DNA from: Nioella sp. MMSF_3534
GTDB taxonomy: Bacteria; Pseudomonadota; Alphaproteobacteria; Rhodobacterales; Rhodobacteraceae
Length of the DNA stretch: 45,004 nucleotides
NCBI RefSeq assembly: GCF_030732985.1
Contig: NZ_JASHJX010000038.1
Coordinates: 1-45,004 of the forward strand
Direction: 5' to 3'
The notes beneath the pieces were generated by a model. The model had not been told where the DNA came from. It did no database searches and saw nothing but the letters and a program-made list of their open reading frames with translations. A program made the translations under genes and the position numbers. Positions 24,711 through 40,997 of the stretch are shown here, in pieces. The stretch's first letter is position 1; every line of letters starts with the position of its first letter.

Positions 24711-24851
24711 CTACGACGCGACGGTCAGCACCTTGGTGCCCGCTTTCTCGATCCCGTCAATTAGCCGCTCGGGGATGCCATGGAGCCCCCCCGGCGGCGA
24801 TCCGCATGCCGTCGCGAGCGCCTCGTCGGCGAAACCATATGCATTCTTCAT
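24711..24851 (-). pseudogene. Truncated 3-oxoacid CoA-transferase subunit A remnant
   Basis: A 46-residue frame starting ATG 24851 inside the BKACE stop codon (ATGA) and ending at TAG 24711-24713. It reads MKNAYGFADEAL, then GLHGIPERLIDGIEKAG and TKVLTVAS. This matches the usual start of CoA-transferase subunit A (GIPE.LI...G...LT..SNN), but the glycine-rich segment is degraded and the gene stops after about one fifth of its normal length. A shifted frame beyond the stop continues with an AGGGFDKQRL-like stretch. It is probably the relic of a CoA-transferase that was once translationally coupled to BKACE. The family call comes from short motifs. Confidence 0.6.
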
Positions 24852-25708
24852 GCGGCTTGGCCTTTCCTGGTCTGTTCAGGCAGGCGCAGACCGAGAATGC
24901 GGCGCGCCTCTTGCCAACGCGCCACGGGGCGATTGTTGCTGTCGCAGATGTCCACGACACGGCGCACCAATGCGGCATTGCTGGGGGCAAGCCGGTCACG
25001 GTCGAGGCGGACATTGTCCTCGAGCCCGGTGCGGGCATGGCCACCCGCTGCGATGGCCCATTCGTTCAGTCTGAGCTGATTGGCACCGATGCCCGCGGCA
25101 CACCAGGGCGTTTCTTCGCCGAAGAGGCGGCGGACGGTGTGGATGTAGTAGTCGAACACATCCCGGTCGACCGGCATGGCGTTTTTCACGCCCATCACGA
25201 ACTGGATATAGGGTGTCCCGGCAAGCTGCCCCTTGTCGACCATGTCCTTCGCTTTCAGGATATGGCTCAGGTCAAAGGCCTCGATTTCCGGCTTGATCTC
25301 GTGCAGAAGCATTTCGCTGGCAAGCCAGTCGACAAGAGCCGGCGGGTTCTCGTAGACGCGGGTCGGGAAGTTGTTCGACCCAACCGACAGGGACGCCATG
25401 TCAGGGCGCAGAAGCAGCATTCCGCCCCGCGTCTGGCCGGCGCCCGACCGTCCGCCGGTCGAAAACTGGATGATCATGCCGGGGCAGTGTTTCTCGATCC
25501 CGTCCTTCAGCGCGGCGAATTTCTCGGGGTCGGACGATGGCGTTTCATCGTCATTTCGCACATGGGCATGAACAATGGTGGCGCCTGCCTCAAACGCCTC
25601 GTGAGTCGACTCCACTTGTTCCGACACAGTTATCGGAACGGCGGGGTTGTTGGCTTTCGTAGGCAGGCTGCCCGTGATCGCCACACAGATGATGCAAGGC
25701 TTGGTCAT
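24848..25708 (-). CDS. Beta-keto acid cleavage enzyme (BKACE, DUF849; 3-keto-5-aminohexanoate cleavage type)
   Basis: A 286-residue TIM-barrel enzyme of PF05853. BKACEs condense a beta-keto acid with acetyl-CoA and split it into acetoacetate and a new acyl-CoA. Start MTKPCIICVAITGS is typical; the Zn site shows as IVHAHVRND (H47, H49) and LNEWAIAAGGHARTGLEDN (E230), positions close to those known for Kce. Here it lies in an operon with an alpha/beta hydrolase inside a benzoate/catechol island, so 3-oxoadipate is a fitting substrate, giving acetoacetate and succinyl-CoA. The substrate is inference. It overlaps a CoA-transferase remnant downstream. Confidence 0.9.
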   Translation of the reverse strand: MTKPCIICVAITGSLPTKANNPAVPITVSEQVESTHEAFEAGATIVHAHVRNDDETPSSDPEKFAALKDGIEKHCPGMIIQFSTGGRSGAGQTRGGMLLLRPDMASLSVGSNNFPTRVYENPPALVDWLASEMLLHEIKPEIEAFDLSHILKAKDMVDKGQLAGTPYIQFVMGVKNAMPVDRDVFDYYIHTVRRLFGEETPWCAAGIGANQLRLNEWAIAAGGHARTGLEDNVRLDRDRLAPSNAALVRRVVDICDSNNRPVARWQEARRILGLRLPEQTRKGQAA

Positions 25709-25768
25709 GATTTCATTCCGAATTGTGCACTCCGGTCAGATTACCGAAGTGCCCTGGTTTTTCAGTGT

Positions 25769-25912
25769 TCAGGATCGCAGATTTGAAAGGGGCGGATGCT
25801 TGCTCGCTGCCTCAAGGGTCTGACGTTCTTCATCGGTGAAGAACATCCAGACGGCATCGTCCCTGTTGTGCTTCTTGCATCCTGGGCATGGGGTATTGGC
25901 GTTCTTGCACAT
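25769..25912 (-). CDS. 47-residue cysteine-rich small protein
   Basis: A short frame with a very strong ribosome-binding site (GGAGGAGGAG) just before ATG 25912, in the same direction as and between the alpha/beta hydrolase (30 bp upstream) and BKACE (60 bp downstream). It begins MCKNANTPCPGCKKH, giving C2, C9, C12 and H15, a CxxC-type pattern suited to binding Zn or another metal. An amphipathic helix follows (FTDEERQTLEAASK). I do not recognise a family. Position inside the operon and the strong start signal support a real gene. Confidence 0.6.
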   Translation of the reverse strand: MCKNANTPCPGCKKHNRDDAVWMFFTDEERQTLEAASKHPPLSNLRS

Positions 25913-25942
25913 GGCTCCTCCTCCCGTGCGGCGGTTGATCTG

Positions 25943-26800
25943 TCAGGCGGCTTTGGCGGCGGTTCCCGGCATCTTTTCCAGCGCGTCCACGAAGAATGGG
26001 CGGAACACCTCCGGGTGCTCGCTCATCGGGAAGTGACCAAGCTCATCCATGACGGCCAGGGTTGCACCGGGAATGGCCTTGGCGGTCCGTTCAGCGTCGT
26101 CAGGCGTGCAGGTCAGATCATAGGCACCGACGATGATGTGAACCGGGGTCGCCCCCGTATCAATGGTCGGCAGGCGCGGGATCAGGCTGTCATCCTTGGT
26201 GTAGAAGCTCAGATCACCCCGGAATACGCCCGGACCGCTTTGCATGAACATCCACAGCGTGTTCCAGCGCTCGGCATTGGGTGCGTAGGGAGAGATATTG
26301 GCGGACACCAATGCAGCCCCCATCTCGCCGCCATGCGCGTCGGGGCGGTGGAACCAGTCGATATCGTACCAGGCGGGCTGGAAATCCGAGGCCTCGATGG
26401 CAATGAAGCCGCTGAACCTGTCGGGGTGAAGCGCCGCCAGTTGCAGCGCGATGCGCCCGCCCATGGAACAGCCCGCCAGAACGGGCCGGTCCAGACCGAG
26501 GCCCTCGATCACGGCCAGAACGGTTTCGATATAGGCCTCGGTCGTCAGCAGGTATTCCTGAGTTTCGAAGCCCTCGGGCGGCAGGGATTTGCCGTGCCAG
26601 GGCATGTCGAAGGCGATCAGGCGGTTCGATTCGGTGATCTCGGCATCGTTCATCAGGTGACGCCACTGACGGGTATCGGCGCCTGCGGTATGCAAACAGA
26701 CGACAGGGCGTCCCTGCCCGGCCTCTTCGAAATAAATGCGGCGTGCTGCGCCCTCGATGGTGACTGTCAGGTAACGACCGGTGATGGGCTCGATGCTCAT
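25943..26800 (-). CDS. Alpha/beta hydrolase (possible 3-oxoadipate enol-lactonase)
   Basis: A 285-residue alpha/beta hydrolase. Catalytic triad: S112 in LAGCSMGGR, D228 in VGAYDLTC, H256 in ELGHFPMS; oxyanion-loop region VCLHTAGAD. A cap region spans about residues 135-200. In a catechol island the expected hydrolase is CatD/PcaD, which opens 3-oxoadipate enol-lactone, and size and motifs allow this. Other ester or C-C hydrolases cannot be excluded by sequence alone. Its start overlaps the stop of the SCP2-like gene (ATGA), and BKACE follows, suggesting product hand-over from hydrolase to BKACE. Confidence 0.85.
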   Translation of the reverse strand: MSIEPITGRYLTVTIEGAARRIYFEEAGQGRPVVCLHTAGADTRQWRHLMNDAEITESNRLIAFDMPWHGKSLPPEGFETQEYLLTTEAYIETVLAVIEGLGLDRPVLAGCSMGGRIALQLAALHPDRFSGFIAIEASDFQPAWYDIDWFHRPDAHGGEMGAALVSANISPYAPNAERWNTLWMFMQSGPGVFRGDLSFYTKDDSLIPRLPTIDTGATPVHIIVGAYDLTCTPDDAERTAKAIPGATLAVMDELGHFPMSEHPEVFRPFFVDALEKMPGTAAKAA

Positions 26801-27240
26801 GCCGCAAACTCCTCTTTGCCGCGGGCCAGTCCCAGAACGTCCTTGAAGAAAAGAAGGTTTTTCACGAGGCTCAGGATGTCGCCGTCGATTCGGCCGCGGC
26901 CGATCTTCACCAGTCCGAAAACATCGTGGAATCCGGGTTCAGGACGCGCTTGCCAGAACTTCTGCAGCGCTTCCGCATCCGTCCGCAGCGCAAAGCGCCA
27001 CGGTGTCTTGCGACTTGGACCTTCGACAACAGAGACGATGCGGCCTTTTTCGAACGACAGGTAAAACTCGGTCCCGTCGATCTCGATCAGAACCGTTTCG
27101 GAAAACAGTCGGCCGAGTCGCTGCAAATGCGGCGTTGCCTCTAGGCGCGTTTGAATTTGCTTGAAGGTATCGATCACCCTGGCCTCCCATGCGTTCGTAA
27201 GCTGGACCATAGCTGCCACGATCAGCTGCACCGGGGCCAT
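26797..27240 (-). CDS. SCP2 sterol-carrier-like protein
   Basis: About 147 residues. The C-terminal 100 residues show the SCP2-like pattern (VLIEIDGTEFYLSFEKGRIVSVVEGP ... LVKIGRGRIDGDILSLV). This fold makes a hydrophobic pocket for lipids or aromatic acyl groups. It is the first gene of the operon SCP2-hydrolase-small protein-BKACE and is divergent from catA. The start is uncertain: TTG 27261, ATG 27240 and ATG 27210 are all in frame and none has a clear ribosome-binding site. Its role in the pathway is unknown. The muconolactone isomerase step lacks a gene, but nothing in this sequence looks like CatC. Confidence 0.7.
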   Translation of the reverse strand: MAPVQLIVAAMVQLTNAWEARVIDTFKQIQTRLEATPHLQRLGRLFSETVLIEIDGTEFYLSFEKGRIVSVVEGPSRKTPWRFALRTDAEALQKFWQARPEPGFHDVFGLVKIGRGRIDGDILSLVKNLLFFKDVLGLARGKEEFAA

Positions 27241-27318
27241 GCCAGCAGGGGTATGGGTCAATACTCTGACCTGCAGATCGCAGGGACTTCATAGTTCTGC
27301 CAGGGCCAGCCCGCCGCT

Positions 27319-27443: not shown

Positions 27444-28319
27444 ATGGGCATCGTCAACCAAGACAACATCACCGAGGTCGTGATCGACAGCCTCGGCAAG
27501 CATGGCGACATCACCGGCCGCCAGCGCGAACTCGCGACCGGCTTGGTCAAGCATCTGCACGCCTTCATCAAGGACGTGAAACTGCAGCATGACGAATTCC
27601 TGTTCGTCTGCGACTACCTCGCCCGCGCTGGCAAGCTCTGCAATGACAACCGCCAGGAGTTCATTCTACTGGGCGACATCCTTGGCGTTGAAGTGCTGGT
27701 CGACATGATGACCAACCCCGTCGAAGGCAACGAGAGCGAATCCACCGTTCTGGGGCCGTTCTATCGCGAAAACCCGCCGGTTCTGCCCAAGGGTGCGTCG
27801 ACCATCCAGAAACATTATGACAACGAAGAAACCGCCTATTTCGAAGGCTACATCAAGGATGAAAACGGCAATGGCATCGCCGGTGTGACGCTCGACGTCT
27901 GGGAAGACGCGCCGAACGGCATCTATGAAAACCTGGACCCCGATCAGCCGGAATACAACCTGCGCGGCCGGTTCGAGACCGACGAAAACGGCCACTACGC
28001 CTTTGTCGCGGTGCGCCCCGTCCCCTACCCGATCCCGGACGATGAAACCGCCGGTGAACTGCTGCGCTTCATGGGTCATCACCCGAACCGCCCCGGCCAC
28101 ATGCACTTCATCATTTCGCGCGAAGGCTATCGCCCGTTGATCAGCCAGATCTACGACGCGGACAGCGCGTGGCTTGAGGATGACAGCGTGTTCGCCGTGA
28201 AGGAGAGCCTGATCGGCAAGTTCAAACCCGCCGCGAAAGACCTCGGCACGGACCTGCACTTCGAATTCGACTTCGTTCTTAAGGCCGAAGCCGATGAAAA
28301 GGCCGTCGCCGCCGAATAA
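27444..28319 (+). CDS. catA: Catechol 1,2-dioxygenase (intradiol ring-cleavage)
   Basis: A 291-residue non-haem Fe(III) enzyme that opens catechol between its hydroxyls to cis,cis-muconate. An N-terminal dimerisation domain (about residues 1-105, PF04444) precedes the catalytic domain (PF00775; TVLGPFYRENPP, YFEGYIKDENGNGIAGVTLDVWE). Iron ligands are Y161, Y195 (PVPYPIPDD), H219 and H221 (RPGHMHF), with spacing very close to that in characterised CatA. Hydroxyquinol dioxygenases share these residues, so the preferred ring is uncertain; ben and catB in the same island favour catechol. ATG 27444 follows a strong AGGAGGAGG site. A terminator follows the gene. Confidence 0.9.
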   Translation: MGIVNQDNITEVVIDSLGKHGDITGRQRELATGLVKHLHAFIKDVKLQHDEFLFVCDYLARAGKLCNDNRQEFILLGDILGVEVLVDMMTNPVEGNESESTVLGPFYRENPPVLPKGASTIQKHYDNEETAYFEGYIKDENGNGIAGVTLDVWEDAPNGIYENLDPDQPEYNLRGRFETDENGHYAFVAVRPVPYPIPDDETAGELLRFMGHHPNRPGHMHFIISREGYRPLISQIYDADSAWLEDDSVFAVKESLIGKFKPAAKDLGTDLHFEFDFVLKAEADEKAVAAE

Positions 28320-28342
28320 TCCGACATTCCTCCCTGAAGACT

Positions 28343-28370
28343 GGCCCCCGCTTGTTCGGGGGCCTTTTTT
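28343..28370 (+). terminator. Rho-independent terminator after catA
   Basis: Perfect 8-bp stem GGCCCCCG/CGGGGGCC with a 6-nt loop, followed by TTTTTT, 24 bp after the catA stop. It separates catA from the LysR gene. Confidence 0.93.
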
Positions 28371-28416
28371 CAGTTTGAGGGATCGCTTAACGTGACATCC
28401 TGGGAGGGCGGCAAAG

Positions 28417-29307
28417 ATGAACTTCAAACAGCTGGCCTATTTCATCGCAGTTGCCGAGGAACTGCACTTCGGGCGTGCCGCCGAAAGGCTGGACATGGCG
28501 CAACCCCCGCTCAGCCGGTCGATAAAGCAGCTGGAAGAAGAGCTTCAGGCTGTCTTGTTCAATCGGGGCCGCAGTGCAATCACCCTGACTCAGGCAGGCG
28601 AGCGGTTGCTGAAGCGCGGCAGGTCAATCATCGCGCAGCTTGATGACACCAAGCTGGAAGTCCGCCGTCTTGGCCAGGGCTCCGAAGGTCGGCTCAGAAT
28701 CGGCTTTGTTGGATCGGCCACCTTCGGCATCCTGCCCAACATCATACGATCCTACCGGGCGAATTTCCCCGAGGTGAACCTCAGCCTCAATCCCATGAAC
28801 AATGCCGAGCTGCACAGGGCGCTTGTGTCACGCGAGCTCGATGTTGTGTTCGCGAGACCGACGCTCAAGGATCCGGAATTCCTGTCCAAACACCTTATCG
28901 AGGAAAAGCTGATCCTTGCGTTGCCGGACATCGTGGATACCGGGTCACGCTCTGTGGCCAAGCTCGAACGGCTGATGACCCACAACCTGATCCTCTACCC
29001 GGAACGACCACGGCCAAGTTATGCCGACATGGTGCTGAACGCGATCGAAGAGGCCGGGTTCGAGGCCCCGTTGCGGATCTGGTGCATGGATCTGCAAACC
29101 GCGCTCGGGCTTGTGGCCGTTGGCGAAGGCGTCTGCGTTGTGCCGGAGTCGGTGGCCAATGCGCCCAGGAAAGGGATGAAGTTCCTGAAGATCGAACCGG
29201 AGATCGCCAGAACGGAGCTTTCGGTGAATTACCGGCTCGACGATCAGGGGGTCCATGTGAAGAACTTCGTCACCATCGCCCAGAAGGTGGCGCGGAAAGT
29301 GATCTAG
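28417..29307 (+). CDS. LysR-family transcriptional regulator
   Basis: A 296-residue LTTR. The winged-helix DNA-binding domain is at residues 1-60 (MNFKQLAYFIAVAEELHFGRAAERLDMAQPPLSRSIKQLEEEL) and the effector-binding domain at about 90-295 (GRLRIGFVGSATFGILP, the CatM/BenM-like start). The N-terminal wording LHFGRAAERLDMAQPPLSR is typical of regulators of aromatic catabolism (BenM, CatR, CbnR). GGGAGG precedes ATG 28417. It lies downstream of catA rather than divergent from its target, which is unusual. Muconate or benzoate would be the expected signal, by analogy only. Confidence 0.9.
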   Translation: MNFKQLAYFIAVAEELHFGRAAERLDMAQPPLSRSIKQLEEELQAVLFNRGRSAITLTQAGERLLKRGRSIIAQLDDTKLEVRRLGQGSEGRLRIGFVGSATFGILPNIIRSYRANFPEVNLSLNPMNNAELHRALVSRELDVVFARPTLKDPEFLSKHLIEEKLILALPDIVDTGSRSVAKLERLMTHNLILYPERPRPSYADMVLNAIEEAGFEAPLRIWCMDLQTALGLVAVGEGVCVVPESVANAPRKGMKFLKIEPEIARTELSVNYRLDDQGVHVKNFVTIAQKVARKVI

Positions 29308-29312
29308 CGGGT

Positions 29313-29345
29313 CGGCCCGGCGGCCCCAAGGGCGCAGCCGGGCCG
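29313..29345. terminator. Hairpin between convergent lysR and benD
   Basis: 9-bp perfect inverted repeat CGGCCCGGC (29313-29321) and GCCGGGCCG (29337-29345) with a 15-nt loop, in the 61-bp gap between two convergent genes. Neither side has a clear T-run, so termination is a guess from position. Confidence 0.45.
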
Positions 29346-29368
29346 GTTAAGCGGACAGATCGCCCGTG

Positions 29369-30148
29369 TCAGCCCAGGTCTCCGCCTCCCACGGGCAGGG
29401 TCACGCCTGTGATGTAAGAGGCGTCATCCGACGCCAGGAACAGGATCGGTCCTGCCTGTTCGTCGAGTGTTCCATAGCGTTTCATCAGCGAGGACTGGAT
29501 CGTCTGATCGACGATGGTCTGGTACCAGTCTTCACGCTGCTCCTCCTCCGCATTGGGGTTGCGCGGCACGATGCGCGGCGGGGCCTCGGTGCCGCCCGGC
29601 GCGGTCGCGACCACGCGGATGCCGCGTTCGGCCACTTCCCAGGCGAGGCTTGCCGTGATCGCGTTCACCCCGCCCTTGGCCGCCGCATAAGGCACGCGGT
29701 TCAGCCCGCGCGTGGCGATGGACGAGACGTTGACGATCACGCCGCTTTCGCGCGGCAGCATGTGCTCGATGGCCGCCCGGCAGCAGTAGAGTGTGGGGAA
29801 GAGCGAGCGGCGCAGCTCGGCGTCGATCTGCCTGGGTTCATAGTTTTCATATGGCTTGGCCCAGATGGTGCCGCCGACGTTGTTCACAAGGATGTCGATG
29901 CGCCCCCAGAGCTCCACGGCCTTCTGCATGGCCTTCTCGCAGCCCGCCCAGGTTTCGAGATTGACCGAGATCGCCTCGGCCATGCCCCCTGCCCCCCGGA
30001 TCGTGGCGACCACGTCCTTTCGGGCGGGTGAGCGGTCGACGATCAGCACGCGGGCGCCTTCGGCGGCGGCGCGCTCGGCCACCAGGCGGCCAATTCCCTG
30101 CGCCGCGCCGGTGACGACCATCACCTTATCGTCGAACCGCCGGGTCAT
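29369..30148 (-). CDS. benD: cis-1,2-dihydroxycyclohexa-3,5-diene-1-carboxylate dehydrogenase
   Basis: A 259-residue short-chain dehydrogenase that oxidises benzoate cis-diol to catechol with loss of CO2. NAD motif TGAAQGIG (residues 13-20), NNVGG (89-93), catalytic S142/S143, Y154 and K158 (YAAAKGG). The stretches GGTIWAKPYENYEP, AELRRSLFPTLYCCRA and APGGTEAPPR are diagnostic for BenD/XylL rather than for general SDRs. The start is ATG 30148, overlapping the benC stop; an open frame extends to 30265 but lies inside benC. Confidence 0.95.
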   Translation of the reverse strand: MTRRFDDKVMVVTGAAQGIGRLVAERAAAEGARVLIVDRSPARKDVVATIRGAGGMAEAISVNLETWAGCEKAMQKAVELWGRIDILVNNVGGTIWAKPYENYEPRQIDAELRRSLFPTLYCCRAAIEHMLPRESGVIVNVSSIATRGLNRVPYAAAKGGVNAITASLAWEVAERGIRVVATAPGGTEAPPRIVPRNPNAEEEQREDWYQTIVDQTIQSSLMKRYGTLDEQAGPILFLASDDASYITGVTLPVGGGDLG

Positions 30149-31167
30149 GCTGCAGCCGCCTCCGCCTCGGTCGGGTTGAACTTCTCGAAGTAGAAATTCG
30201 CGGGATCGACCCCCAGTTTGGCGAAATGCGCGCGCACCGCATCGACCATCGGCGGAGGACCGCACAGGTAGACATCGGCATCGCCTGCATTCAGATCGTC
30301 GGCGGTCACGTGATCGGTGACGAAGCCCTTGCGGTCATGCGCTTCCTCCTCGGCGGCGAGGATGGTGATGACCGTCACATTGCCGATCCTGTCGGCCAGT
30401 TCGCGGACCCGCTCCAGTTCCACCAGATCGGCGGCGCGGGTGACGGCATAGTAGAGCGTGATGGGGTGATCCGCGCCCTGCTCCGCCACCTGTTCCAGCA
30501 TCGACAGGAACGGGGCCAGCCCCGTGCCACCGGCCAGCCAGAGCTGCGGGCGCTCGACGGGGCGCAGGTAGAAGGCCCCCATGGGACCGGTGAGCGTGAC
30601 GGCATCGCCCGCCTGAGCGCGTTCGCCAAGATAGCTGCTCATCACCCCACCGGGCAGATTGCGGATCAGGAAAGTGGCCTCCTCGGCGCCGGGGGCCGAC
30701 GAGAAGGAATAGGACCGGTGCACGCCCGTTCCGGGCACGGTCACGTTCACGTATTGACCGGGGAGGAACCCGATGGGCTTGGCCAGCTTGACGCGCAGGC
30801 CGAAGGAGGTTTCCGACAGGCGATCGACGCCCAGAACCTCGCCCTCGACCGCCTCGGGCGCGGTCTTGCACAGGGCAGACGAGGCCGGGACGCGCAGCAC
30901 GCAATCGCTTTCGGGGATCATCTGGCAGGTCAGGACATAGCCCTGTTCCGCCTCCTCGTCCGACATGGACTCGTCCATGTAGAATTCCAGCTCGTACTCG
31001 CCCTTTTCGGCAAAGCACTTGCAGGTGCCACAGACGCCATCGCGGCAATCCATCGGCAGGTTGATCTTCTGGCGGAAGGCGGCATCGGTCACCTTTTCGT
31101 CGTCATCGCACTGGATGACACGGGTGACACCGTCTTCGAAGTTCAGGGCAACGTTGTAGGTCGTCAT
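30145..31167 (-). CDS. benC: Benzoate 1,2-dioxygenase reductase component
   Basis: A 340-residue electron-transfer flavoprotein feeding NADH electrons to BenAB. The N-terminal plant-type [2Fe-2S] ferredoxin domain has cysteines C41, C46, C49 (CRDGVCGTCKC) and C81. The FAD-binding domain has RSYSFSSAPG, and the NAD domain has LAGGTGLAPFLSML and YLCGPPPMVDAV near the C-terminus. Domain order matches BenC. It lies between benB (73-bp gap) and benD (ATGA overlap). Confidence 0.95.
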   Translation of the reverse strand: MTTYNVALNFEDGVTRVIQCDDDEKVTDAAFRQKINLPMDCRDGVCGTCKCFAEKGEYELEFYMDESMSDEEAEQGYVLTCQMIPESDCVLRVPASSALCKTAPEAVEGEVLGVDRLSETSFGLRVKLAKPIGFLPGQYVNVTVPGTGVHRSYSFSSAPGAEEATFLIRNLPGGVMSSYLGERAQAGDAVTLTGPMGAFYLRPVERPQLWLAGGTGLAPFLSMLEQVAEQGADHPITLYYAVTRAADLVELERVRELADRIGNVTVITILAAEEEAHDRKGFVTDHVTADDLNAGDADVYLCGPPPMVDAVRAHFAKLGVDPANFYFEKFNPTEAEAAAA

Positions 31168-31240: not shown

Positions 31241-31768
31241 TCAGACGTGGTAGACGTCGATCACGTGGTGGATGTGATCGTTCTTCAGGACCACCTTCTT
31301 CGACGTGATCAGCAGCTTCGGCCCGCTGGTGTCGATGGTGTAGAAGGACGTGCCCCAGTGCTGGTCGGTGTCGCCGTAGCGATAGCTCAGCGTGTGCCAG
31401 TTGAAGCGCAGCTTGAGTTGCGACCCCTCCTGGCTCAGCACCTCGATATTCGCGATGTTGTGGTTCGTCCGGGGTTCCGGCAGCGACGTGGCCGAGGACC
31501 GGTCGGTCTTGATCCGGAACACGCGGTCCTCGATGCCCTGCTTGTTGGGGTAGTACATCAGCGACATCTCGTTTGCCGGATCTTCCGTGAGCGTGTCGTA
31601 GTCGTCCCATGCCGGCATCCAGAACGGGCAGTCCTTGTGATAGAAGGTCAGCCAGGTGTCCCAATCGCGATCATCGAGCGCGCGGACCTCTGCATGAAGG
31701 AAGGCCTGGATCTCGGCGAAGCTCAGTTCCGTGTCGGTGGCGGGGCGTTCAAGCGTTGCGATGCTCAT
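31241..31768 (-). CDS. benB: Benzoate 1,2-dioxygenase small (beta) subunit
   Basis: A 175-residue structural subunit of the Rieske dioxygenase hexamer, of the NTF2-like ring-hydroxylating beta family (PF00866). Typical blocks are FLHAEVRALDDRDWDTWLTFYHKDCPFWMPAWDDYD, EMSLMYYPNKQGIEDRVFRI and RTNHNIANIEV. It starts 12 bp after the benA stop. Confidence 0.95.
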   Translation of the reverse strand: MSIATLERPATDTELSFAEIQAFLHAEVRALDDRDWDTWLTFYHKDCPFWMPAWDDYDTLTEDPANEMSLMYYPNKQGIEDRVFRIKTDRSSATSLPEPRTNHNIANIEVLSQEGSQLKLRFNWHTLSYRYGDTDQHWGTSFYTIDTSGPKLLITSKKVVLKNDHIHHVIDVYHV

Positions 31769-33241: not shown

Positions 33242-34390
33242 CTATTCGCCGGCGACGGCTTTCATGGTCCGCCCGCCATCGCGGCGGAAGAAATCAACCT
33301 TGTCGGGATCAAGCGTTGCGCCGATGCCGGTGCCCTTGGGGATCTCGACGCAGAAGTCGCGGTAGACGATTGGGTCAGCCAGAATGTCCTCGGTCAGAAG
33401 AAGCGGGCCAAAAAGCTCGGTGCCCCAGGTCAGATCTTCGACGGTCGAAAACAACTGCAACGCGGCGGCGGTGCTCAGCCCGGTTTCCAGCATCGTGCCG
33501 CCATAGAGGCCAAGACCCGCCGCCTGCCCGATGGCAATGACTTCCGATGCACGCTTGAGACCGCCGGACTGCCCGATCTTTACGGCAAACACATCTGCCG
33601 CGCGCGCGGCCGCGACTTCCAAAGCGTCTTCGGGGCCATTCAGCGCCTCGTCCGCCATCACGGCGATCTCGTAGCCTCTGGTCAGCTCCGCCATTGCACG
33701 GCGATAGCGGGCGGGAACCGGTTGCTCGACCAGTTCGCAGCCTGCATCCTGAAGGCCCTTGAGACCCCAGCGCGCGTCCTGAAGGGACCATGCCGTGTTC
33801 ACGTCGACGCGCACGCTTGCAGCGTCGCCAACAGCCTCCTTGATCCGCGCCACATGCGCCACGTCCTCGCGCACAGAGCGCTTGCCGATCTTCAGTTTGA
33901 AGATGTTGTGACGGCGGGTTTCGATCATTTCGTGGGCTTCGGCGATATCGGTGTCCGAATTGCCCGAAGCCAGGGTCCAGGCGACCGGCAGACGCTCGTG
34001 CACCGACCCGCCGAAGAGTTGCGACACCGGCACGCCCAACCGCTTGCCCAGCCCGTCCCAGAGGGCGATCTCGACCGCTGTCTTGGCGATGCGATTGGCC
34101 TTGACCAGCTTGTCGATCAGCTGGATCGCGCCATTCACATCATCCGCGTTCCGCCCGATCAGCGCTGGCGCGATATAGGTGTCTATCGCCGACAGGATGC
34201 CTTCGGGGCTTTCCGGTCCGTAGCTCAGCCCGCCGATCGTCGTGCCTTCGCCAATACCTTCGGAGCCGTCCGAGAACTTGACCCTGACCAGCACGGCGGT
34301 TTGCGTCCGCATCGTGGCCATGGACAGCACGTGACCGCGAATGGTCGGGATGTCGAGGATCATGGTCTCGATCTGGTCAATCTTGGTCAC
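33242..34390 (-). CDS. catB: Muconate cycloisomerase
   Basis: A 382-residue enolase-superfamily enzyme that turns cis,cis-muconate into muconolactone. Catalytic lysines are K165 and K167 (FKLKIGKR); metal ligands are D196 (RVDVNTAW), E222 (VEQPVP) and D247 (ADEAL). These sit two positions before those of Pseudomonas CatB throughout. WTLASGNSDTDIAEA is characteristic of the subfamily. It heads the minus-strand run catB-benA-benB-benC-benD. No catC gene follows, which is unusual. Confidence 0.95.
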   Translation of the reverse strand: MTKIDQIETMILDIPTIRGHVLSMATMRTQTAVLVRVKFSDGSEGIGEGTTIGGLSYGPESPEGILSAIDTYIAPALIGRNADDVNGAIQLIDKLVKANRIAKTAVEIALWDGLGKRLGVPVSQLFGGSVHERLPVAWTLASGNSDTDIAEAHEMIETRRHNIFKLKIGKRSVREDVAHVARIKEAVGDAASVRVDVNTAWSLQDARWGLKGLQDAGCELVEQPVPARYRRAMAELTRGYEIAVMADEALNGPEDALEVAAARAADVFAVKIGQSGGLKRASEVIAIGQAAGLGLYGGTMLETGLSTAAALQLFSTVEDLTWGTELFGPLLLTEDILADPIVYRDFCVEIPKGTGIGATLDPDKVDFFRRDGGRTMKAVAGE

Positions 34391-34482: not shown

Positions 34483-34610
34483 CTGACGAGATGCATGCCG
34501 GTTGCGACAGCTCGAATACCAAAACAGGCGCCACGAATTGTGACGCCTGATCTGGACCGTCAACATGGGTGGCGGCGGACGAGAACGCAATCTCTATAGC
34601 GACGCCGCGC

Positions 34611-34745
34611 TCAACGGCGAGGTTGACGACCGCGGCAGCGACAGCAAGGTCTTGCAGGCCGACACCCGCACCGGTGTTCGGCGGATATGCGCGCGATCCG
34701 GTCCTGCGCGGCAAGCATGTCGTCGTATGAAGGGATATAGATCAC
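34611..34745 (-). pseudogene. Truncated gene coupled to the amino-acid dehydrogenase
   Basis: A GTG at 34745 overlaps the stop of the upstream FAD dehydrogenase and opens a frame VIYIPSYDDMLAAQDRIARI. This resembles the start of threonine-dehydratase-like PLP enzymes, but the frame is lost and stops at 34611. In another frame the same stretch continues as GVGLQDLAVAAAVVNLAVERG, reminiscent of ornithine-cyclodeaminase-type C-termini. This looks like a deletion relic of one or two amino-acid-degrading genes. Family calls rest on short motifs only. The whole gap between catB and the dehydrogenase (about 350 bp) otherwise holds only the catB promoter region. Confidence 0.4.
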
Positions 34746-36025
34746 ATGGCCCCCTGTGTTCTCAGAGCGGTAGAGGTGCCCAAAGATTCACCGCACGACC
34801 CGTTTACCGTGCGGGATTCCGAGACAGTTTCTGCCACCATCTCGGCCGTCACGGCGGACAAGGTCCAACCCAGATGTCCATGCCCGGTATTGTAGAACAC
34901 CCGGTCCCGAACACCCTGCCCCACCTTGGGCATCATGTTCGGCATCATCGGGCGCAGGCCCGCCCAGGGAATGGCGTGTTCCGTGCTGACGCCCGGGAAG
35001 AAACGTTCGCACCACTTGACCAGCGGGCGGATGCGGTCATCCCGGATATCGAGGTTATAGCCATTGAACTCCGCCGTTCCGGCAATCCGGAACCGGTCCT
35101 TGCCAAGGCGGCTGGTGACCACCTTGGCCTCGTCATCAAGCAAGCTGATCCAGGGCGCCGCGCGCTGGCTTTCCTCGTCATCGAGGCGAACGGTGATGGA
35201 ATAGCCCTTCACCGGGTAGACATTCACCCGGTCACCAAGCTGCGCTGCGATGGCCCGGCTTTCGACACCGGCACAGACTACAATGCCGTCAAAGGTCTCG
35301 ACCTGGCTTTCGGTGTTCCGGCTCCAGGTGATGCGCACCTCTTTGTCATCGGCGCGGATATCTTCCACATCCGTTCCGAAACGCAACACCGCGCCGCTCG
35401 CTTCAATGGATTTGGCAAGACCCGTCGTGTAGCGGTGAATGTCGCCGGTGAAATCGCTTTCCGTGTAGTACCCGCCGTAGAACTCCCCGCTCAGCGCCGG
35501 TTCGATCTGGCGCATTTCTTCCGGGGCGACGGCGCGGCGCGTGAGCCCGCCTTCGGCCAGCAGCCTGTTGACCTCGGTGGCGTGGTCGAACTCGGCCTTG
35601 TCGGTGTAGATATGCAGGATGCCCCGGTTTTCGCAGTCGAAGTCGAAGCCGAACCGGTCGGCCTTTTCGCGCAGCAAACCCCTTGCGGCAATCGCCATGC
35701 GGGCGGTTTCCACGGTGTTGGCCCGGTATTGCGGGATCGCGGCGATGAATTCGGCCATCCAGCTGTACTTGTGCCAACTCGGGCGCGGGTTGATCAGAAG
35801 CGGCGCGCCCCGTGTCATCATCCACTTCATGCCCTTGAAGACGGTGGACAGCCGGTTCCAGGTTTCGGCATTCGACGCGGACAATTGCCCGCCATTGGCG
35901 AAGGACGTCTGCATCGCCGCATAACGGTTGCGGTCGAAAAGCGTCACCTCGTAGCCCCGGTCCATGAGGCTGGAAGCAGTCGTCACGCCGGTGATTCCGG
36001 CGCCAATTACGGCAATTCTGGTCAT
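34742..36025 (-). CDS. FAD-dependent D-amino-acid dehydrogenase / glycine oxidase-like (DadA family)
   Basis: A 427-residue DAO-fold flavoprotein (PF01266). The FAD-binding N-terminus is RIAVIGAGITGVTTASSLMDRG, followed by DadA-type SFANGGQLSASNAETWN and, near the C-terminus, WAGLRPMMPNMMPKVG and YNTGHGHLGWTLS. It would oxidise a D-amino acid or glycine to the keto acid (glyoxylate) and ammonia at the membrane. A glycine riboswitch in its leader points to glycine as signal and probable substrate. Of two ATGs, 36025 is chosen because GGAGG is 5 bp upstream; the one at 36028 is too close. Confidence 0.88.
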   Translation of the reverse strand: MTRIAVIGAGITGVTTASSLMDRGYEVTLFDRNRYAAMQTSFANGGQLSASNAETWNRLSTVFKGMKWMMTRGAPLLINPRPSWHKYSWMAEFIAAIPQYRANTVETARMAIAARGLLREKADRFGFDFDCENRGILHIYTDKAEFDHATEVNRLLAEGGLTRRAVAPEEMRQIEPALSGEFYGGYYTESDFTGDIHRYTTGLAKSIEASGAVLRFGTDVEDIRADDKEVRITWSRNTESQVETFDGIVVCAGVESRAIAAQLGDRVNVYPVKGYSITVRLDDEESQRAAPWISLLDDEAKVVTSRLGKDRFRIAGTAEFNGYNLDIRDDRIRPLVKWCERFFPGVSTEHAIPWAGLRPMMPNMMPKVGQGVRDRVFYNTGHGHLGWTLSAVTAEMVAETVSESRTVNGSCGESLGTSTALRTQGAM

Positions 36026-36107: not shown

Positions 36108-36197
36108 GCCTGTCCGATCACAGTCCTTTTGCCTGAGAGGTTCCGGGGGGTTGCTCCTTCGGCGCCGGCATGTTGGCCAGCCTCTCCTGTCTCGGCT
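36108..36197 (-). promoter_or_regulatory. Glycine riboswitch aptamer
   Basis: On the minus strand, in the leader of the FAD dehydrogenase, the sequence shows the glycine-aptamer landmarks in order: GGAGAG (36187-36182), then GGCGCCGAAGGAGCAA, then CCTCTCAGGCAAAAGGAC. The GGAGAG pairs with CTCTC, and flanking CCGA/TCGG can close P1. It seems to be a single aptamer; no full second copy follows. About 80 nt remain to the start codon, including a GC hairpin (CCGCC-N4-GGCGG) that may form the expression platform. Whether glycine turns the gene on or off is not shown; an ON switch for catabolism is usual. Confidence 0.93.
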
Positions 36198-36211
36198 TCG
36201 TTGGCAGAGTG

Positions 36212-36258: not shown

Positions 36259-36259
36259 C

Positions 36260-36739
36260 CTATGTTGCACAGGCGTCGCGCAGAGAGTCCTTGTATTCCG
36301 GAGAGGTGACCCAACGCCCCAACCGCAGCAGCAGCCCGTTCAATTGCGCCATCTCATCCGCACTCAGCGGCTCGGTCAGAATTACCTCAAGCCGGTCCGA
36401 CAGGTCCCTTGCGATCCGGCGCACCTGCTTTCCTTTTTCGGTCGTTCGGAGGAAGAAAACGCGTGCATCCTCGGGGGAGTTTTCGCGATAGATCAGGTCA
36501 GCACCCAGGAGGCTTTGGATAATCCTTGAGGTCAGGCTGCGTTCGAGTCCGGTTGACTTCAATATCTCTGCAAACGTCGTTCCCGGAGAATCGTCAACCA
36601 GACGCAAAACCCTCAGCTCCCGGATTCGGCAGCCGGTTTCTCGCAGGAAGATGGCATCGTTTGCCCGGATCGCCTCTTGCGCGACGATATCGAGACGGTA
36701 GGTCAACCGCTCGTTTTGAAAGGTTTTTTTCTCCAGCAT
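36260..36739 (-). CDS. MarR-family transcriptional regulator
   Basis: A 159-residue winged-helix regulator (PF12802/PF01047): RIRELRVLRLVDDSPGTTFAEILKSTGLERSLTSRIIQSLLGADLIYRE is the DNA-binding domain with its recognition helix, then EDARVFFLRTTEKGKQVRR forms the wing. Terminal helices give the dimer. It is divergent from the amidohydrolase gene across about 140 bp. The perfect 18-bp palindrome 31-48 bp before its start codon is the natural site for autorepression. Members of this family often sense aromatic acids or CoA thioesters, so benzoate, hippurate or a derivative is a reasonable ligand guess. Confidence 0.9.
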   Translation of the reverse strand: MLEKKTFQNERLTYRLDIVAQEAIRANDAIFLRETGCRIRELRVLRLVDDSPGTTFAEILKSTGLERSLTSRIIQSLLGADLIYRENSPEDARVFFLRTTEKGKQVRRIARDLSDRLEVILTEPLSADEMAQLNGLLLRLGRWVTSPEYKDSLRDACAT

Positions 36740-36787: not shown

Positions 36788-36881
36788 GTTGGGTGGTCAA
36801 TTTATTCTCAGCTTGAAACCTTTTTGGGATACAAGTCTCAACATGCAACCATCTCACCCTGAGAATCAAGGGAAAGCCGAC

Positions 36882-38072
36882 ATGTTCGACACCTGGTATG
36901 ACACGCAGCGCGACACATCGCTGGCCTGGCTTCAGGACTTGCATGCCCACCCCGAGACCGGGTTCGAAGAGGTCCGTACCGCCGCCTTTGTTGCCGCGCG
37001 CCTGGCCGATTTCGGCTTCGAGGTCGCCACCGGCATCGGCGGAACAGGCGTTGTCGGCACGTTGTATGGCCGCGACGCCAGCCCCGAACGCCCTGGCCGC
37101 TGCATCGCCTTCCGGGCCGAACTGGACGCGCTGCCGATGGAAGAAAAGGCCGATGTCGCCTACCGCTCCACGGATGCGGCACGCTTTCACGGCTGCGGCC
37201 ATGACGGGCACACGGTCACGTCGCTGACCGCCGCCGCCTACCTGGCACAGCACCGCGACTTCGACGGCACGATCCGTTTCATTTTCCAGCCCGCCGAAGA
37301 GCTTCTGACCGGGGCGCGCGCCATGCTGGCTGACGGGCTGTTCGGGCGCTTCCCATGTGACGAGATCTACGCCCTGCACAATCTGCCGGGCCTGCCGGAG
37401 GGGGCCGTCGCGGTTCCCGCATCGTCTGCGCTGGCATCGGCTGACAATATCGACGTGACGATCCGCGCGAACGGTGCCCATGGCGCGATGCCGCATACCG
37501 GCGAGGACGCGATGCTCGCCGCCGCCAGTTTCCTGACCTCTGTCCAGCAGGCCGCGACGCGCGCTTTCGATGCCCGCGACGCGGGCGTGATTTCCTTCGG
37601 CACTTTGCGCGGCGGCACCGCCCGCAACATCCTGCCCGAGGAAATCCGGCTCGAAGGCACCATGCGCACGACCGCAACCTCGGTCCGCGACCGCCTGGAA
37701 ACGCTCCTGACCGACACCGCCCGCGCGACCGACGCGATCTTCGGCGTCACGACAACCGTTTCCGTGGAAAAGGTCGCGCCAGTGACCATGAACCACCCCG
37801 CCGCCGTGGCCGCCGTCGTGACGTCGGCCAGCCGCGTCATCGGCCCCGACAAGGTGATCGAGAACGCCCGCAGCCTGATGGCCTCCGAGGATTTCTCGGA
37901 ATTCAGCGCGCGCGTTCCGGGTGCCTATTTCTTCGTCGGCCAGTCGGGCCGCGCGCCCCACCACCCCGAATATGTCTTCGACCCCGAGATCATCCCCGTC
38001 GGCGCGGCAATCTTTGCCGATCTCGCCCGAACGCGGACGAGCCGTTCGCTCAACGCGCAAGCGAACACCTGA
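36882..38072 (+). CDS. M20D amidohydrolase, probable hippurate hydrolase
   Basis: A 396-residue metal-dependent enzyme of the HipO / aminoacylase family (PF01546). Metal-site residues are C105, H107 and H110 in FHGCGHDGHT, and E139-E140 in FQPAEELL; the dimerisation domain has ANGAHGAMPHTGEDAM; and EDFSEF lies near the C-terminus. Family members cleave N-acyl amino acids, with hippurate (benzoylglycine) the classical substrate. Neighbours support this: the products benzoate and glycine each have dedicated genes in the island. ATG 36882 follows AAGGG at good distance and gives the family N-terminus. Other N-acyl amino acids remain possible. Confidence 0.88.
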   Translation: MFDTWYDTQRDTSLAWLQDLHAHPETGFEEVRTAAFVAARLADFGFEVATGIGGTGVVGTLYGRDASPERPGRCIAFRAELDALPMEEKADVAYRSTDAARFHGCGHDGHTVTSLTAAAYLAQHRDFDGTIRFIFQPAEELLTGARAMLADGLFGRFPCDEIYALHNLPGLPEGAVAVPASSALASADNIDVTIRANGAHGAMPHTGEDAMLAAASFLTSVQQAATRAFDARDAGVISFGTLRGGTARNILPEEIRLEGTMRTTATSVRDRLETLLTDTARATDAIFGVTTTVSVEKVAPVTMNHPAAVAAVVTSASRVIGPDKVIENARSLMASEDFSEFSARVPGAYFFVGQSGRAPHHPEYVFDPEIIPVGAAIFADLARTRTSRSLNAQANT

Positions 38073-38101
38073 AACACACCGTCATCAAAGGGAGGTTCCA
38101 G

Positions 38102-39151
38102 ATGACCTACTTCACCACCAAAACCCTCAAGGCGTCGGTCGCCGCCATCGCGATTGTCGCAAGCACCCAGGCTGCAAGCGCCGAAGTGCTGACCATGTCG
38201 TCCTGGGTTCCGCCGACCCATTTCGTACACACCGACATCCTCGTGCCCTTCACCGAGCGCGTGGCCGAGGCCACCGAGGGCCGCGTCACCATCATGATCC
38301 TGCCCGCGCCGCTGGCCAGCCCGCCGCAACACTGGGAACTGGCGCGCAATGGCGTGGCCGACATCACCTGGGGCAACTTCACCTACGAGCCCGAGCGCTT
38401 CGTTTCGATGTGGTTCTCGGAATTCCCGAACTCCGGCACCAATGCCGAAGCGCAAAGCGTTGCCCTGTGGCGCACCTTTGACACCTATCTTGCCGACAAC
38501 GCGGCGTTCGACGGCGTTGAAGTTCTGGGCGTCGGCCTCTTCGGTGGCGGTCAGCTTCACCACGGCTCCACCACCATTTCCGCGCCCGAGGACATGGAAG
38601 GGCAAAAGTTCCGCATGGGTGGCCCGATCCAGGAACAGCTGCTGACCGCGCTCGGATCGGTTCCCGTAGCCTCGCCCGCAACCCGCGCCTACGAGATGCT
38701 GGAAAGCGGCGTCATCGACGGCTCGCTGCACACGATGGAATCCGTGGTCAACTTTCGCCTCGACGAAAGCCTGACCCACCACACCGTGTTTCCGGGCGGC
38801 TTTTACGACGCGAGCTTCTTCATCGCCATGAACGGCGCCCGTTGGGACGGCCTGAGCGACGCAGACCGCGCCGCGATCGAAGAGATCTCGGGCGAGGCCC
38901 TGTCGGCGGCCTGGGGGGCGACCTTCGACATCCAGAACGCCGCCGCGTTCGAAACCCTGTCCGGCGAAGGCCACGAGATCGTGGAAGCCTCGCCCGAACT
39001 GGTCGCAGCGGTCGATGCCATCACCGACGACATGATCGCCGAATGGATCACCGCCGCCACCGCCGCCGGGGTCGAGGATCCGGCCGCCGTTCTGGAGTTC
39101 TACACCCGAACCTACACGGACCTCGTCAACGCAGAGGCCTCCGGCAGCTGA
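38102..39151 (+). CDS. TRAP transporter substrate-binding protein (DctP type)
   Basis: A 349-residue periplasmic binding protein with signal peptide (KTLKASVAAIAIVASTQAASA, cut before EVLTM). DctP fold (PF03480): STTISAPEDMEGQKFRMGG, with the arginine that usually binds a substrate carboxylate, and GVIDGSLHTMESVVNF. It would deliver an organic acid to the DctQM permease. Position right after the amidohydrolase (29-bp gap, GGGAGG site) suggests the hydrolase's substrate, hippurate or a related acid. The signal-peptide start and ATG 38102 are clear. Confidence 0.93.
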   Translation: MTYFTTKTLKASVAAIAIVASTQAASAEVLTMSSWVPPTHFVHTDILVPFTERVAEATEGRVTIMILPAPLASPPQHWELARNGVADITWGNFTYEPERFVSMWFSEFPNSGTNAEAQSVALWRTFDTYLADNAAFDGVEVLGVGLFGGGQLHHGSTTISAPEDMEGQKFRMGGPIQEQLLTALGSVPVASPATRAYEMLESGVIDGSLHTMESVVNFRLDESLTHHTVFPGGFYDASFFIAMNGARWDGLSDADRAAIEEISGEALSAAWGATFDIQNAAAFETLSGEGHEIVEASPELVAAVDAITDDMIAEWITAATAAGVEDPAAVLEFYTRTYTDLVNAEASGS

Positions 39152-39207
39152 TCGGCAGGACCGGGGGCAGCCCGCCTGCCTCCGGCCACAAAAGGGGAGG
39201 AGAAAAC

Positions 39208-39708
39208 ATGCGAAACCTGACATGGAAGATCCGGCATGCCGTCGAAACGGTGATGGCCCTGTTCCTTCTGTCCATGGTGGCCCTGACCTTCGCAGACGTC
39301 ATCGGCAGGCGCATCTTCGGCGCGCCGATCTACGGCTCGAACGACATCACCGAACACCTCATGGCGCTGGTCGTCTTTTCCGGCCTGCCGCTGGTGACCG
39401 CCGCCGGCGCCCACCTGACTATCGACTTGTTCGACAAGCTGATCTCCAGCCCCCGGATGGGCTGGTGGCGGGTGCTGATCTCGGTCCTTGTCACCGCCGT
39501 TCTGGCGATGATGGCCTGGCTCTTCGTCAAGCACGGGCTGAACGCCTCGCAGATTTCCGAGGTCAGCCAAGCCCTGCGGGTGCCGCGCGCACCGCTCTAC
39601 TTCGTCATGTCCGCAAGCCTCGGCCTCTCGGCCCTCGCCGCGCTGATCATCGCCCTCGCCGGGCCGATGGTCGATCCCGAAGACACCCACCAGGAGGAAG
39701 CCCTATGA
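39208..39708 (+). CDS. TRAP transporter small permease (DctQ type)
   Basis: A 166-residue protein with four membrane spans (PF04290): RHAVETVMALFLLSMVALTFADVIGRRIF at the start, then SNDITEHLMALVVFSGLP, the DctQ hallmark region. ATG 39208 has GGGAGGAG upstream. It ends in an ATGA overlap with dctM. It is the small membrane partner that couples the binding protein to the large permease. Confidence 0.93.
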   Translation: MRNLTWKIRHAVETVMALFLLSMVALTFADVIGRRIFGAPIYGSNDITEHLMALVVFSGLPLVTAAGAHLTIDLFDKLISSPRMGWWRVLISVLVTAVLAMMAWLFVKHGLNASQISEVSQALRVPRAPLYFVMSASLGLSALAALIIALAGPMVDPEDTHQEEAL

Positions 39709-40997
39709 TCGTCGGTTCCATCGCGATGGCCTCGGCCATCATCCTCGCCTTCCTGCGCGTTCCGCTTGCCTTCGCCCTTCTGGCGGTCTCGGTGGCCGGG
39801 ATCGGCTTCGCCATCAACTGGAACATCGCCTTCCAGCTGATCCCGCTCACCATCGCCGACGCGGTTCTGTCCTATGACCTTGCCGTGGTGCCGATGTTCA
39901 TCCTGATGGGCAACGTCATTTCCAAAACCGGTATCGCACAGGATCTGTTCCGCGCCGCCTACGCCTTCGTCGGCAATGTGCGCGGGGGGCTGGCGCTCTC
40001 GACCATGGTGGCCTGTTCCGGGTTCTCGGCGGTCTGCGGATCGAGCTACGCCACTGCCGCGACCATGGCCAAGGTCTCCTACCCCAGCATGAAGAAATAC
40101 CGCTATTCCGATGAACTGGCGGCAGGCACCATCGCAGCGGGTGGCACCCTGGGCATTCTGATCCCACCGTCGATCATCATGGTGATCTACGGCATCCTGA
40201 CCCAGACCAATATCGGCGACCTGTTCATCGCGGGCGTGGTGCCCGGCCTGCTCGGCCTCGCCATGTACATGCTGGCGATCCGCCTTGTCGCCGCGCGCAA
40301 GCCCGAACACGCCCCGCAGGGCGAACGCACCCCCTGGCCCGAGAAACTGCGCGCCCTGTCCGGTGTCTGGCCCTTCCTGCTGCTCTTTGGGCTCATCATC
40401 GGCGGGCTCTACGCCCGGCTCTTCACGCCCACGGAAGCGGCGGGCATGGGCGCGGGCCTTGCGATCCTGATCGCCACGCTGCACGGACGCCTGAACTGGG
40501 CCACTCTGCGCAGGATCATCGTCGACACCGCCTATACCTCGGTCTCGCTCTACACGGTGCTTTTCGGCGCGCTGATGCTGTCGAAACTGCTGACCCTGTC
40601 GGGCCTTGCGGCGGGCGTTCTGGGCCTCGTGCAATCGACCGGGCTGGAGGGCACGATGCTGATCCTCGCGATCATGCTGGTCTTCCTCGTGCTCGGCTGC
40701 GTGATGGACTCGATGGCGATCATCCTGATCTTCGTGCCGCTTTTTGCCCCGATCGTGGTGGCGCAGGGGTTCGACCTGGTCTGGTTCGGGATCATCGTCA
40801 TCGTCGTGACCGAGATCGCGTTGATCACGCCACCGGTTGGCATGAACGTCTTCGTCCTGAAGGCGGTGCTGCCAGAGGTGCCCGTGGTGCGGATCTTCAA
40901 GGGGCTCGTGCCCTTCATCGCAGCGGATGTCCTGCGGCTGGCTGCTCTGATCGCCTTCCCCGCGATCACGCTTTGGCTGGGCAGTACGATCGGTTGA
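39705..40997 (+). CDS. TRAP transporter large permease (DctM type)
   Basis: A 430-residue protein with about 12 membrane spans (PF06808). Typical blocks: VPLAFALLAVSVAGIG, VVPMFILMGNVISKTGIAQDLF, STMVACSGFSAVCGSSYATAATM, TLGILIPPSIIMVIYG, FTPTEAAGMGA, and TPPVGMNVFVLKAV near the end. It carries out Na+-driven uptake of the substrate captured by DctP. It starts inside the dctQ stop codon. It is the last gene of the hydrolase-dctP-dctQ-dctM unit. Confidence 0.95.
   Translation: MIVGSIAMASAIILAFLRVPLAFALLAVSVAGIGFAINWNIAFQLIPLTIADAVLSYDLAVVPMFILMGNVISKTGIAQDLFRAAYAFVGNVRGGLALSTMVACSGFSAVCGSSYATAATMAKVSYPSMKKYRYSDELAAGTIAAGGTLGILIPPSIIMVIYGILTQTNIGDLFIAGVVPGLLGLAMYMLAIRLVAARKPEHAPQGERTPWPEKLRALSGVWPFLLLFGLIIGGLYARLFTPTEAAGMGAGLAILIATLHGRLNWATLRRIIVDTAYTSVSLYTVLFGALMLSKLLTLSGLAAGVLGLVQSTGLEGTMLILAIMLVFLVLGCVMDSMAIILIFVPLFAPIVVAQGFDLVWFGIIVIVVTEIALITPPVGMNVFVLKAVLPEVPVVRIFKGLVPFIAADVLRLAALIAFPAITLWLGSTIG

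Follow-up and report, generated by a model that had tools for sequence, protein, structure and literature searches.

Animals excrete large amounts of hippurate (N-benzoylglycine), and the locus described here raises the question of whether a bacterium can carry, in a single gene cluster, a dedicated route for both halves of this molecule. The window analysed is an entire contig of 45,004 bases from Nioella sp. MMSF_3534, whose genome of 4.15 Mb is rated 100% complete. It carries genes encoding a tripartite ATP-independent periplasmic (TRAP) transporter (DctPQM), an M20D amidohydrolase, BenABCD, CatA, CatB, an alpha/beta hydrolase, a BKACE enzyme, a DadA-type flavin adenine dinucleotide (FAD) dehydrogenase preceded by a glycine riboswitch, regulators of the MarR and LysR families and a small protein, called here orf126 (Table 1). 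This set is likely to be a dedicated catabolic cluster for hippurate. It is a combination of known enzyme types that is real and conserved, and it includes a candidate for a new isomerase.

In the proposed route, DctPQM would take up an aromatic acid and the M20D enzyme would split hippurate into benzoate and glycine. BenABCD, CatA and CatB, which all belong to the corresponding families, would convert benzoate into muconolactone, orf126 and the alpha/beta hydrolase would act in place of CatC and PcaD to give 3-oxoadipate, and BKACE, as its family indicates, would yield succinyl-coenzyme A (CoA) and acetoacetate. Glycine bound by the riboswitch would presumably turn dadA on, and DadA would convert part of the glycine into glyoxylate. 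In three relatives, BhcC, BhcB and BhcD encoded within the cluster would join glyoxylate and more glycine, leading to aspartate; in Nioella, the bhc genes of the cluster appear to have been deleted and a set located elsewhere in the genome would have to serve. The ligand of MarR is probably hippurate or benzoate, and LysR may respond to a ben/cat intermediate.

Conservation of the cluster

At an expectation value (E) <=1e-120, a search of 292 genomes of the order yielded the M20D protein in seven, with 60-100% identity: the genome under study, Nioella sediminis (G344), Loktanella sp. IMCC34160 (G381), Marivita geojedonensis (G216), Gemmobacter aestuarii (G197) and the genomes G253 and G261. 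In the stretches read, the genes encoding MarR, M20D and DctPQM are adjacent in all seven, and dadA, catB and benA lie beside this module in six. The same block was met through dadA in Primorskyibacter aestuariivivens (G099), which brings the number of complete clusters to seven, distributed among six genera. In Loktanella, Marivita, Gemmobacter and G253, and also in P. aestuariivivens, the contig with the M20D gene holds a close catA no more than about 17 kb away. Outside these genomes, a plasmid of Leisingera caerulea encodes MarR, M20D and TRAP proteins with 71-88% identity, followed by two FAD monooxygenase genes and, further on, by ben/cat genes.

Some of these relatives show features of their own. 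The two FAD aromatic monooxygenases encoded after the M20D-TRAP genes in Leisingera caerulea (L039 13328-17321) may point to hydroxylated hippurates. In N. ostreopsis, about 4.6 kb located between benD and the LysR gene (L061 3239-7870) is not found in the window (position 29365) and includes a gene for a binding protein of a branched-chain type ATP-binding cassette (ABC) transporter. In N. sediminis, a gap (L052 14306-14561) corresponds to positions 27477-29365 of the window; there, the route should end at catechol unless the assembly is faulty.

Uptake and cleavage

The M20D protein, when aligned with YxeP and ILL2, displays the Cys/His/Glu/His metal-site motifs CGHDGH, PAEE, HNLPG and HHP, whose residues we take to be the metal ligands of this family. 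Its closest solved relatives are YxeP and a plant indole-3-acetic acid (IAA)-amino acid hydrolase. For DctP, a structure model built from seven aligned sequences only (mean predicted local distance difference test score, pLDDT, 80.0) has 4p56 as its best Foldseek match, a structure that presumably holds mandelate. It is followed by TarP structures whose titles name coumarate, cinnamate, ferulate, caffeate and 4-hydroxyphenylacetate; also among the matches are marine binding proteins described in their titles as 'specific for aromatic acid ligands', and the first 22 include 5im2, whose ligand is not readable from its title. A sequence search with DctP places the same aromatic-acid binding proteins at the top. 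An aromatic acid is a well supported cargo of DctP; that hippurate is both this cargo and the substrate of M20D is what we infer.

The glycine half

On the same strand as dadA, the glycine aptamer has its 3' end 85 nt upstream of the start of this gene. Relatives of DadA at E <=1e-120 were found in 17 of 149 genomes of the family, and a glycine riboswitch lies just upstream of the gene in all 17. These include the clusters of the window and of P. aestuariivivens; four of the other 15 loci were read with wider flanks and hold no gene of the cluster save dadA, except for one benD-like match of 54 residues. The riboswitch also precedes dadA in five relatives of the M20D set and thus in 7/7 complete clusters. 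The only control, a second DadA-like gene of P. aestuariivivens (32% identity), has no riboswitch and is a weak negative control for the 17/17 count. The closest solved structures are glycine oxidases, which are remote (E 1.9e-17 and 5.2e-14). As judged from sequence, the riboswitch-linked DadA proteins probably form a clade of glycine dehydrogenases, also where the surroundings that were read hold no hippurate cluster.

The riboswitch leader has a folding z-score of -2.77, and its expression platform could not be read. The genome of Nioella sp. MMSF_3534 holds one other glycine riboswitch locus, upstream of gcvT and gcvP. The aptamer of the window belongs to the same family as those known on gcvT operons; however, the gcvT-type riboswitch of this genome is a tandem, whereas the window displays a single aptamer preceding a DadA-type dehydrogenase gene.

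In the beta-hydroxyaspartate cycle, glycine and glyoxylate are joined to hydroxyaspartate, which is converted into iminosuccinate and then into aspartate. Three of the seven clusters (P. aestuariivivens, G253 and Gemmobacter aestuarii) carry bhcB, bhcC and bhcD between dadA and catB. All three P. aestuariivivens proteins score above their NCBIfam cut-offs, BhcC matching 6qkb and BhcD matching 6rqa. By the families of these proteins, glyoxylate made by DadA together with BhcBCD could lead from two glycines to one aspartate. The window cluster is devoid of intact bhcB, bhcC and bhcD and holds only a fused scar, in which blastn matches 82 nt at 78% to the bhcB start of an intact bhc stretch (L163), and 284 nt at 79% to the bhcD end through to catB. 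This scar, where the bhcB start runs into the bhcD end, is common to the window and N. sediminis; no bhc match was found at the same place in Loktanella and Marivita. Outside the cluster, bhcC with adjoining bhcB and bhcD is present in each of the seven cluster genomes, and G261 shows no bhcC at E <=1e-80.

A catechol branch devoid of CatC

No match to CatC (PF02426) was found in the genome of Nioella sp. MMSF_3534, the control being positive in Corynebacterium glutamicum, or in 6/6 further genomes carrying the M20D module. Among the 149 genomes of the family, orf126 occurs in 14 and PF02426 in nine, eight of them above the cut-off, and only G130 has both. Of the two catC genes of G130, the better match belongs to a canonical benABCD-catA-catC-catB cluster that is separate and encodes a CatA only 27% identical to that of the window. 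A close catA (at least 57% identity to that of the window) is found in 9/149 genomes; orf126 accompanies it in 9/9, with no PF02426 in 8/9, further catA matches at 39-45% being left out of this comparison. A CatC gene near the cluster was also ruled out with a profile made of six PF02426-family proteins, which detected none in 80 loci; the four control loci positive with this profile are its own source genes, and the independent test is provided by the whole-genome Pfam searches. The alpha/beta hydrolase, for its part, scores below the PcaD cut-off (TIGR02427, 73.2 vs 255.85 bits).

Sulfitobacter D7 provides a comparison. According to PMC9873259, benzoate can serve this strain as its sole carbon source, and every gene of the catechol branch but that of CatC was identified by the authors. 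Its plasmid resembles the window in carrying catB-benABCD, a LysR gene, catA, orf126 (annotated as a hypothetical protein) and, directly after orf126, the hydrolase gene; CatC is missing, by the authors' account, as it is from the window genome. The plasmid differs from the window in holding only MarR and a broken M20D remnant, with no TRAP or dadA match in 28 kb, and hippurate is not mentioned in the paper. The simplest reading is that the orf126-hydrolase pair takes over the steps of CatC and PcaD. As for the MarR gene and broken M20D remnant of this plasmid (L184 19176-20098), they suggest that an ancestor probably had the hippurate module.

A genome-contig scan yielded 228 relatives of orf126. 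In the best 80 of these 228 loci, some of which are cut by contig ends, the hydrolase gene follows orf126 in 80/80, with a LysR gene near it in 76, catA in 75 and BKACE in 55. The pair is equally constant in other samples: in the family, the hydrolase gene adjoins orf126 in the window and in 13/13 fetched stretches (catA being near in eight of the 13); among plasmids, the pair is kept in 7/7 regions read, of 34 records with an orf126 match; in a sample of 398 genomes of the phylum, it was found in 10/10 stretches fetched, of 12 further orf126 matches. A spurious reading frame was rejected, orf126 showing 62-98% identity in 43 other aligned sequences and being an annotated protein on plasmids. 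No sequence match was found for it in NCBIfam, Pfam or the Protein Data Bank (best E 0.94 in the latter). Its model (mean pLDDT 91.2) displays an SCP2-like fold, with best template-modelling (TM) scores of 0.70-0.73 (2cx7, TM 0.73, E 1.6e-5; 1wfr, TM 0.70, E 3.6e-6).

Two roles can be considered for orf126 within the pair. It is tentatively proposed, at somewhat below even chance, that orf126 is a new muconolactone (butenolide) isomerase of SCP2-like fold, unrelated to CatC, which together with the hydrolase would convert butenolides into 4-oxo acids, both in the catechol branch of Rhodobacterales and in remote pairs. About as likely, orf126 may only assist the hydrolase or carry its ligand, isomerisation being left to the hydrolase, to an unrecognised enzyme or to a non-enzymatic reaction; an even chance is given to this helper role. 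The latter is favoured by the best structural matches, which are sterol-carrier and other SCP2 proteins rather than isomerases, and by the eight positions that are the only ones invariant in 18 sequences (G22, G45, F62, F74, P79, P81, G99 and N107), none of which is an obvious acid-base residue. It is also favoured by the occurrence of the pair in surroundings other than catechol genes. Indeed, remote pairs from plasmids of Rhodococcus (L043 7986-10878) and Peribacillus (L044 7974-10889) lie upstream of a succinate-semialdehyde dehydrogenase gene, and other pairs neighbour genes for transporters, a CoA-transferase, a molybdopterin oxidoreductase or an M20 peptidase. The pair is thus a catabolic unit of wider use, and an argument drawn from the catechol context alone loses weight. 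However, the companionship of orf126 with the close catA, in genomes nearly all devoid of PF02426, argues against a mere helper, and orf126 was never seen apart from the hydrolase gene in any locus read and is therefore required for the function of the pair, whatever this may be. If orf126 is an isomerase, the Rhodococcus and Peribacillus pairs would carry out the corresponding reaction with a smaller butenolide as substrate, leading to succinate semialdehyde.

Hippurate or another substrate

Several observations weigh against a dedicated hippurate route. M20 amidohydrolases are broad, with 418 plasmid records matched at E <=1e-60, of which a single one exceeds 60% identity. The MarR-M20D-TRAP module of G261 has neither dadA nor ben genes inside the 20 kb fetched, and the Leisingera caerulea plasmid, which has both the module and ben/cat genes, has no match to dadA within the 32 kb examined. 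The cluster of N. sediminis is devoid of catA and of the LysR gene, and no other catA was found in this genome at E <=1e-20. Furthermore, the benzoate branch lacks catC and is complete only if the orf126-hydrolase pair fills the gap, and the top NCBIfam name for DadA is D-amino acid dehydrogenase, glycine as its substrate resting on the riboswitch. Some of these points would suit a module devoted to another N-acyl or N-aroyl amino acid (for example hydroxybenzoyl-, phenylacetyl- or indoleacetyl-glycine), hippurate being at most one of several substrates. Such a module can stand without ben genes, as in G261, or beside two FAD aromatic monooxygenase genes, as in Leisingera; the solved neighbours of M20D, YxeP and the plant IAA-amino acid hydrolase, and the several aromatic acids bound by relatives of DctP, point the same way. 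However, among the nine sources in which the module is intact, ben and glycine genes adjoin it in seven, which fits a benzoyl half and a glycine half, and another substrate is considered unlikely.

It is less probable still that benzoate genes and an independent amino-acid module are adjacent by chance and do not form one route. Clusters of ben/cat genes without M20D are indeed common, M20D being present in one of the best 80 of the 228 orf126 loci (an undercount, as flanks reach at most 10 kb and many are cut), but the gene order is kept in seven genomes belonging to six genera and the close catA clade is confined to 9/149 genomes of the family. As the order of the block recurs in seven genomes, including other genera, chance adjacency was rejected.

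A hippurate cluster thus remains the preferred reading. An earlier note, made from the letters of this DNA, had proposed the uptake and cleavage of an N-aroyl glycine, the passage of benzoate to ben/cat and a riboswitch sensing glycine. These parts are supported by the conservation of the block, the aromatic-acid TRAP neighbours, the riboswitch preceding all 17 dadA relatives and bhcBCD in three relatives; hippurate as the substrate and the ligands of MarR and LysR keep the status of proposals. The same note called the route self-contained, which is too strong, because the use of glyoxylate and acetoacetate needs genes located elsewhere and the isomerase step is a putative one: the genome has no catC, bhcBCD has been lost in the window and the one further bhcBCD set is found on a different contig. 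The note knew of no described system in this exact combination, and none was found in the open-access literature, which is weak evidence as subscription papers are mostly outside its scope.

Gene content and borders of the cluster

Genes were assigned from reading frames with Pfam and the NCBIfam cut-offs, and RNAs with ARAGORN and Rfam. The NCBIfam cut-offs are passed by BenA, BenB, BenD (these three at equivalog level), CatB, BKACE, DadA and the M20 amidohydrolase; BenC, MarR and DctP were placed in their families by Pfam, BenC completing the BenABCD set by its domains. CatA scores below the equivalog cut-offs for catechol dioxygenases (140.8 vs 392 and 135.3 vs 404.4 bits), and LysR below those of BenM (NF040709, 145.1 vs 600 bits) and CatM (NF040710, 141.8 vs 580 bits). 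All the genes and the riboswitch that the earlier note had listed were recovered in their places; it had missed the orf126 gene, the absence of catC and the bhcB/bhcD deletion scar.

Table 1. Features of the proposed hippurate cluster and its left border in the Nioella sp. MMSF_3534 window
Feature	Position	Strand	Basis
tRNA-Thr(TGT), left border	23935..24010	+	ARAGORN; Rfam 69.6 bits
DUF6538 frame, probable integrase fragment	24072..24764	+	Pfam PF20172, E 2.9e-10, first 67 residues
BKACE, 3-oxoadipate:acetyl-CoA acetyltransferase type (replaces PcaIJ/PcaF)	24848..25708	-	NCBIfam NF053568, 489.7 bits vs cut-off 350
Alpha/beta hydrolase, proposed enol-lactonase, partner of orf126	25943..26800	-	Pfam Abhydrolase_1; GxSxG present
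orf126, 126 aa, predicted SCP2-like fold, proposed CatC stand-in	26797..27177	-	Hydrolase pairing in 80/80 loci; structure model
catA, intradiol catechol dioxygenase	27444..28319	+	Pfam Dioxygenase_C and Dioxygenase_N; no NCBIfam cut-off reached
LysR-family regulator	28417..29307	+	Pfam HTH_1 and LysR_substrate
benD	29369..30148	-	NCBIfam NF040811, 434.2 bits vs cut-off 380
benC	30145..31167	-	Pfam Fer2, FAD_binding_6, NAD_binding_1
benB	31241..31768	-	TIGR03232, 248.8 bits vs cut-off 225.55
benA	31781..33169	-	TIGR03229, 793 bits vs cut-off 780.95; start set by annotated length in relatives
catB, muconate cycloisomerase	33242..34390	-	TIGR02534, 504.7 bits vs cut-off 334.95
bhcB-start/bhcD-end fusion scar, junction near 34666	34580..34746	-	blastn to intact bhc stretch (L163)
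DadA-type FAD dehydrogenase, proposed glycine dehydrogenase	34742..36025	-	NF009074, 702.3 bits vs cut-off 494
Glycine riboswitch aptamer	36111..36199	-	RF00504, 57.8 bits vs gathering 32
MarR regulator, divergent from M20D	36260..36739	-	Pfam MarR_2 and MarR
M20D amidohydrolase, proposed hippurate hydrolase	about 36879..38072	+	TIGR01891, 310.2 bits vs cut-off 153.75; metal-site motifs
DctP, TRAP solute-binding protein	38102..39151	+	Pfam DctP; Foldseek neighbours are aromatic-acid TRAP proteins
DctQ	39208..39708	+	Pfam DctQ
DctM	39705..40997	+	Pfam DctM; TIGR00786

That the cluster is a mobile island is a tentative reading, which rests on the tRNA-Thr gene and the integrase-like fragment. 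The 3' end of the tRNA has a single match in the window, the tRNA itself; the contig stops at 45004 and the far end of an island may lie beyond. At the right end, positions 41699-44398 encode a large protein with matches to M10 peptidase and FG-GAP repeats, its DNA holding six repeat copies spaced about 144 nt. A 129-nt inverted repeat (44270-44398 and 44876-45004, 95% complementary) reaches the contig end, where the assembly probably broke.

Relation to known systems and biological meaning

Like the ben-cat branch of the beta-ketoadipate pathway, the window encodes members of the BenABCD, CatA and CatB families together with a regulator of the LysR type. However, it is devoid of CatC, encodes orf126 and a hydrolase below the PcaD cut-off, has BKACE for PcaIJ and PcaF, and ties the whole to the import and splitting of an N-acyl amino acid. 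The M20D enzyme resembles HipO of Campylobacter by the name of the M20 amidohydrolase family, but is encoded within a catabolic cluster that includes a transporter of its own. BhcB, BhcC and BhcD of the three relatives are orthologues of those of the beta-hydroxyaspartate cycle (bhcABCD of Paracoccus denitrificans); they differ in following a riboswitch-controlled dadA and would thus draw on glycine.

In the open-access literature, searches combining hippurate with TRAP, hydrolase, benzoate, Roseobacter, benABCD or the hydroxyaspartate cycle found no such system, which is weak evidence, and no paper was found there that treats a glycine riboswitch together with a D-amino acid dehydrogenase. 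On CatC, the one useful open-access source was PMC9873259, which reports the CatC gap in a benzoate-growing Sulfitobacter. No described gene system for the use of hippurate in the sea was found in this literature either, and the cluster offers a testable route that would use both halves of the molecule. Within it, the riboswitch marks a DadA clade as probable glycine dehydrogenases and beta-hydroxyaspartate genes may be put to use for glycine, while orf126 provides a concrete candidate for filling the CatC gap reported in PMC9873259.

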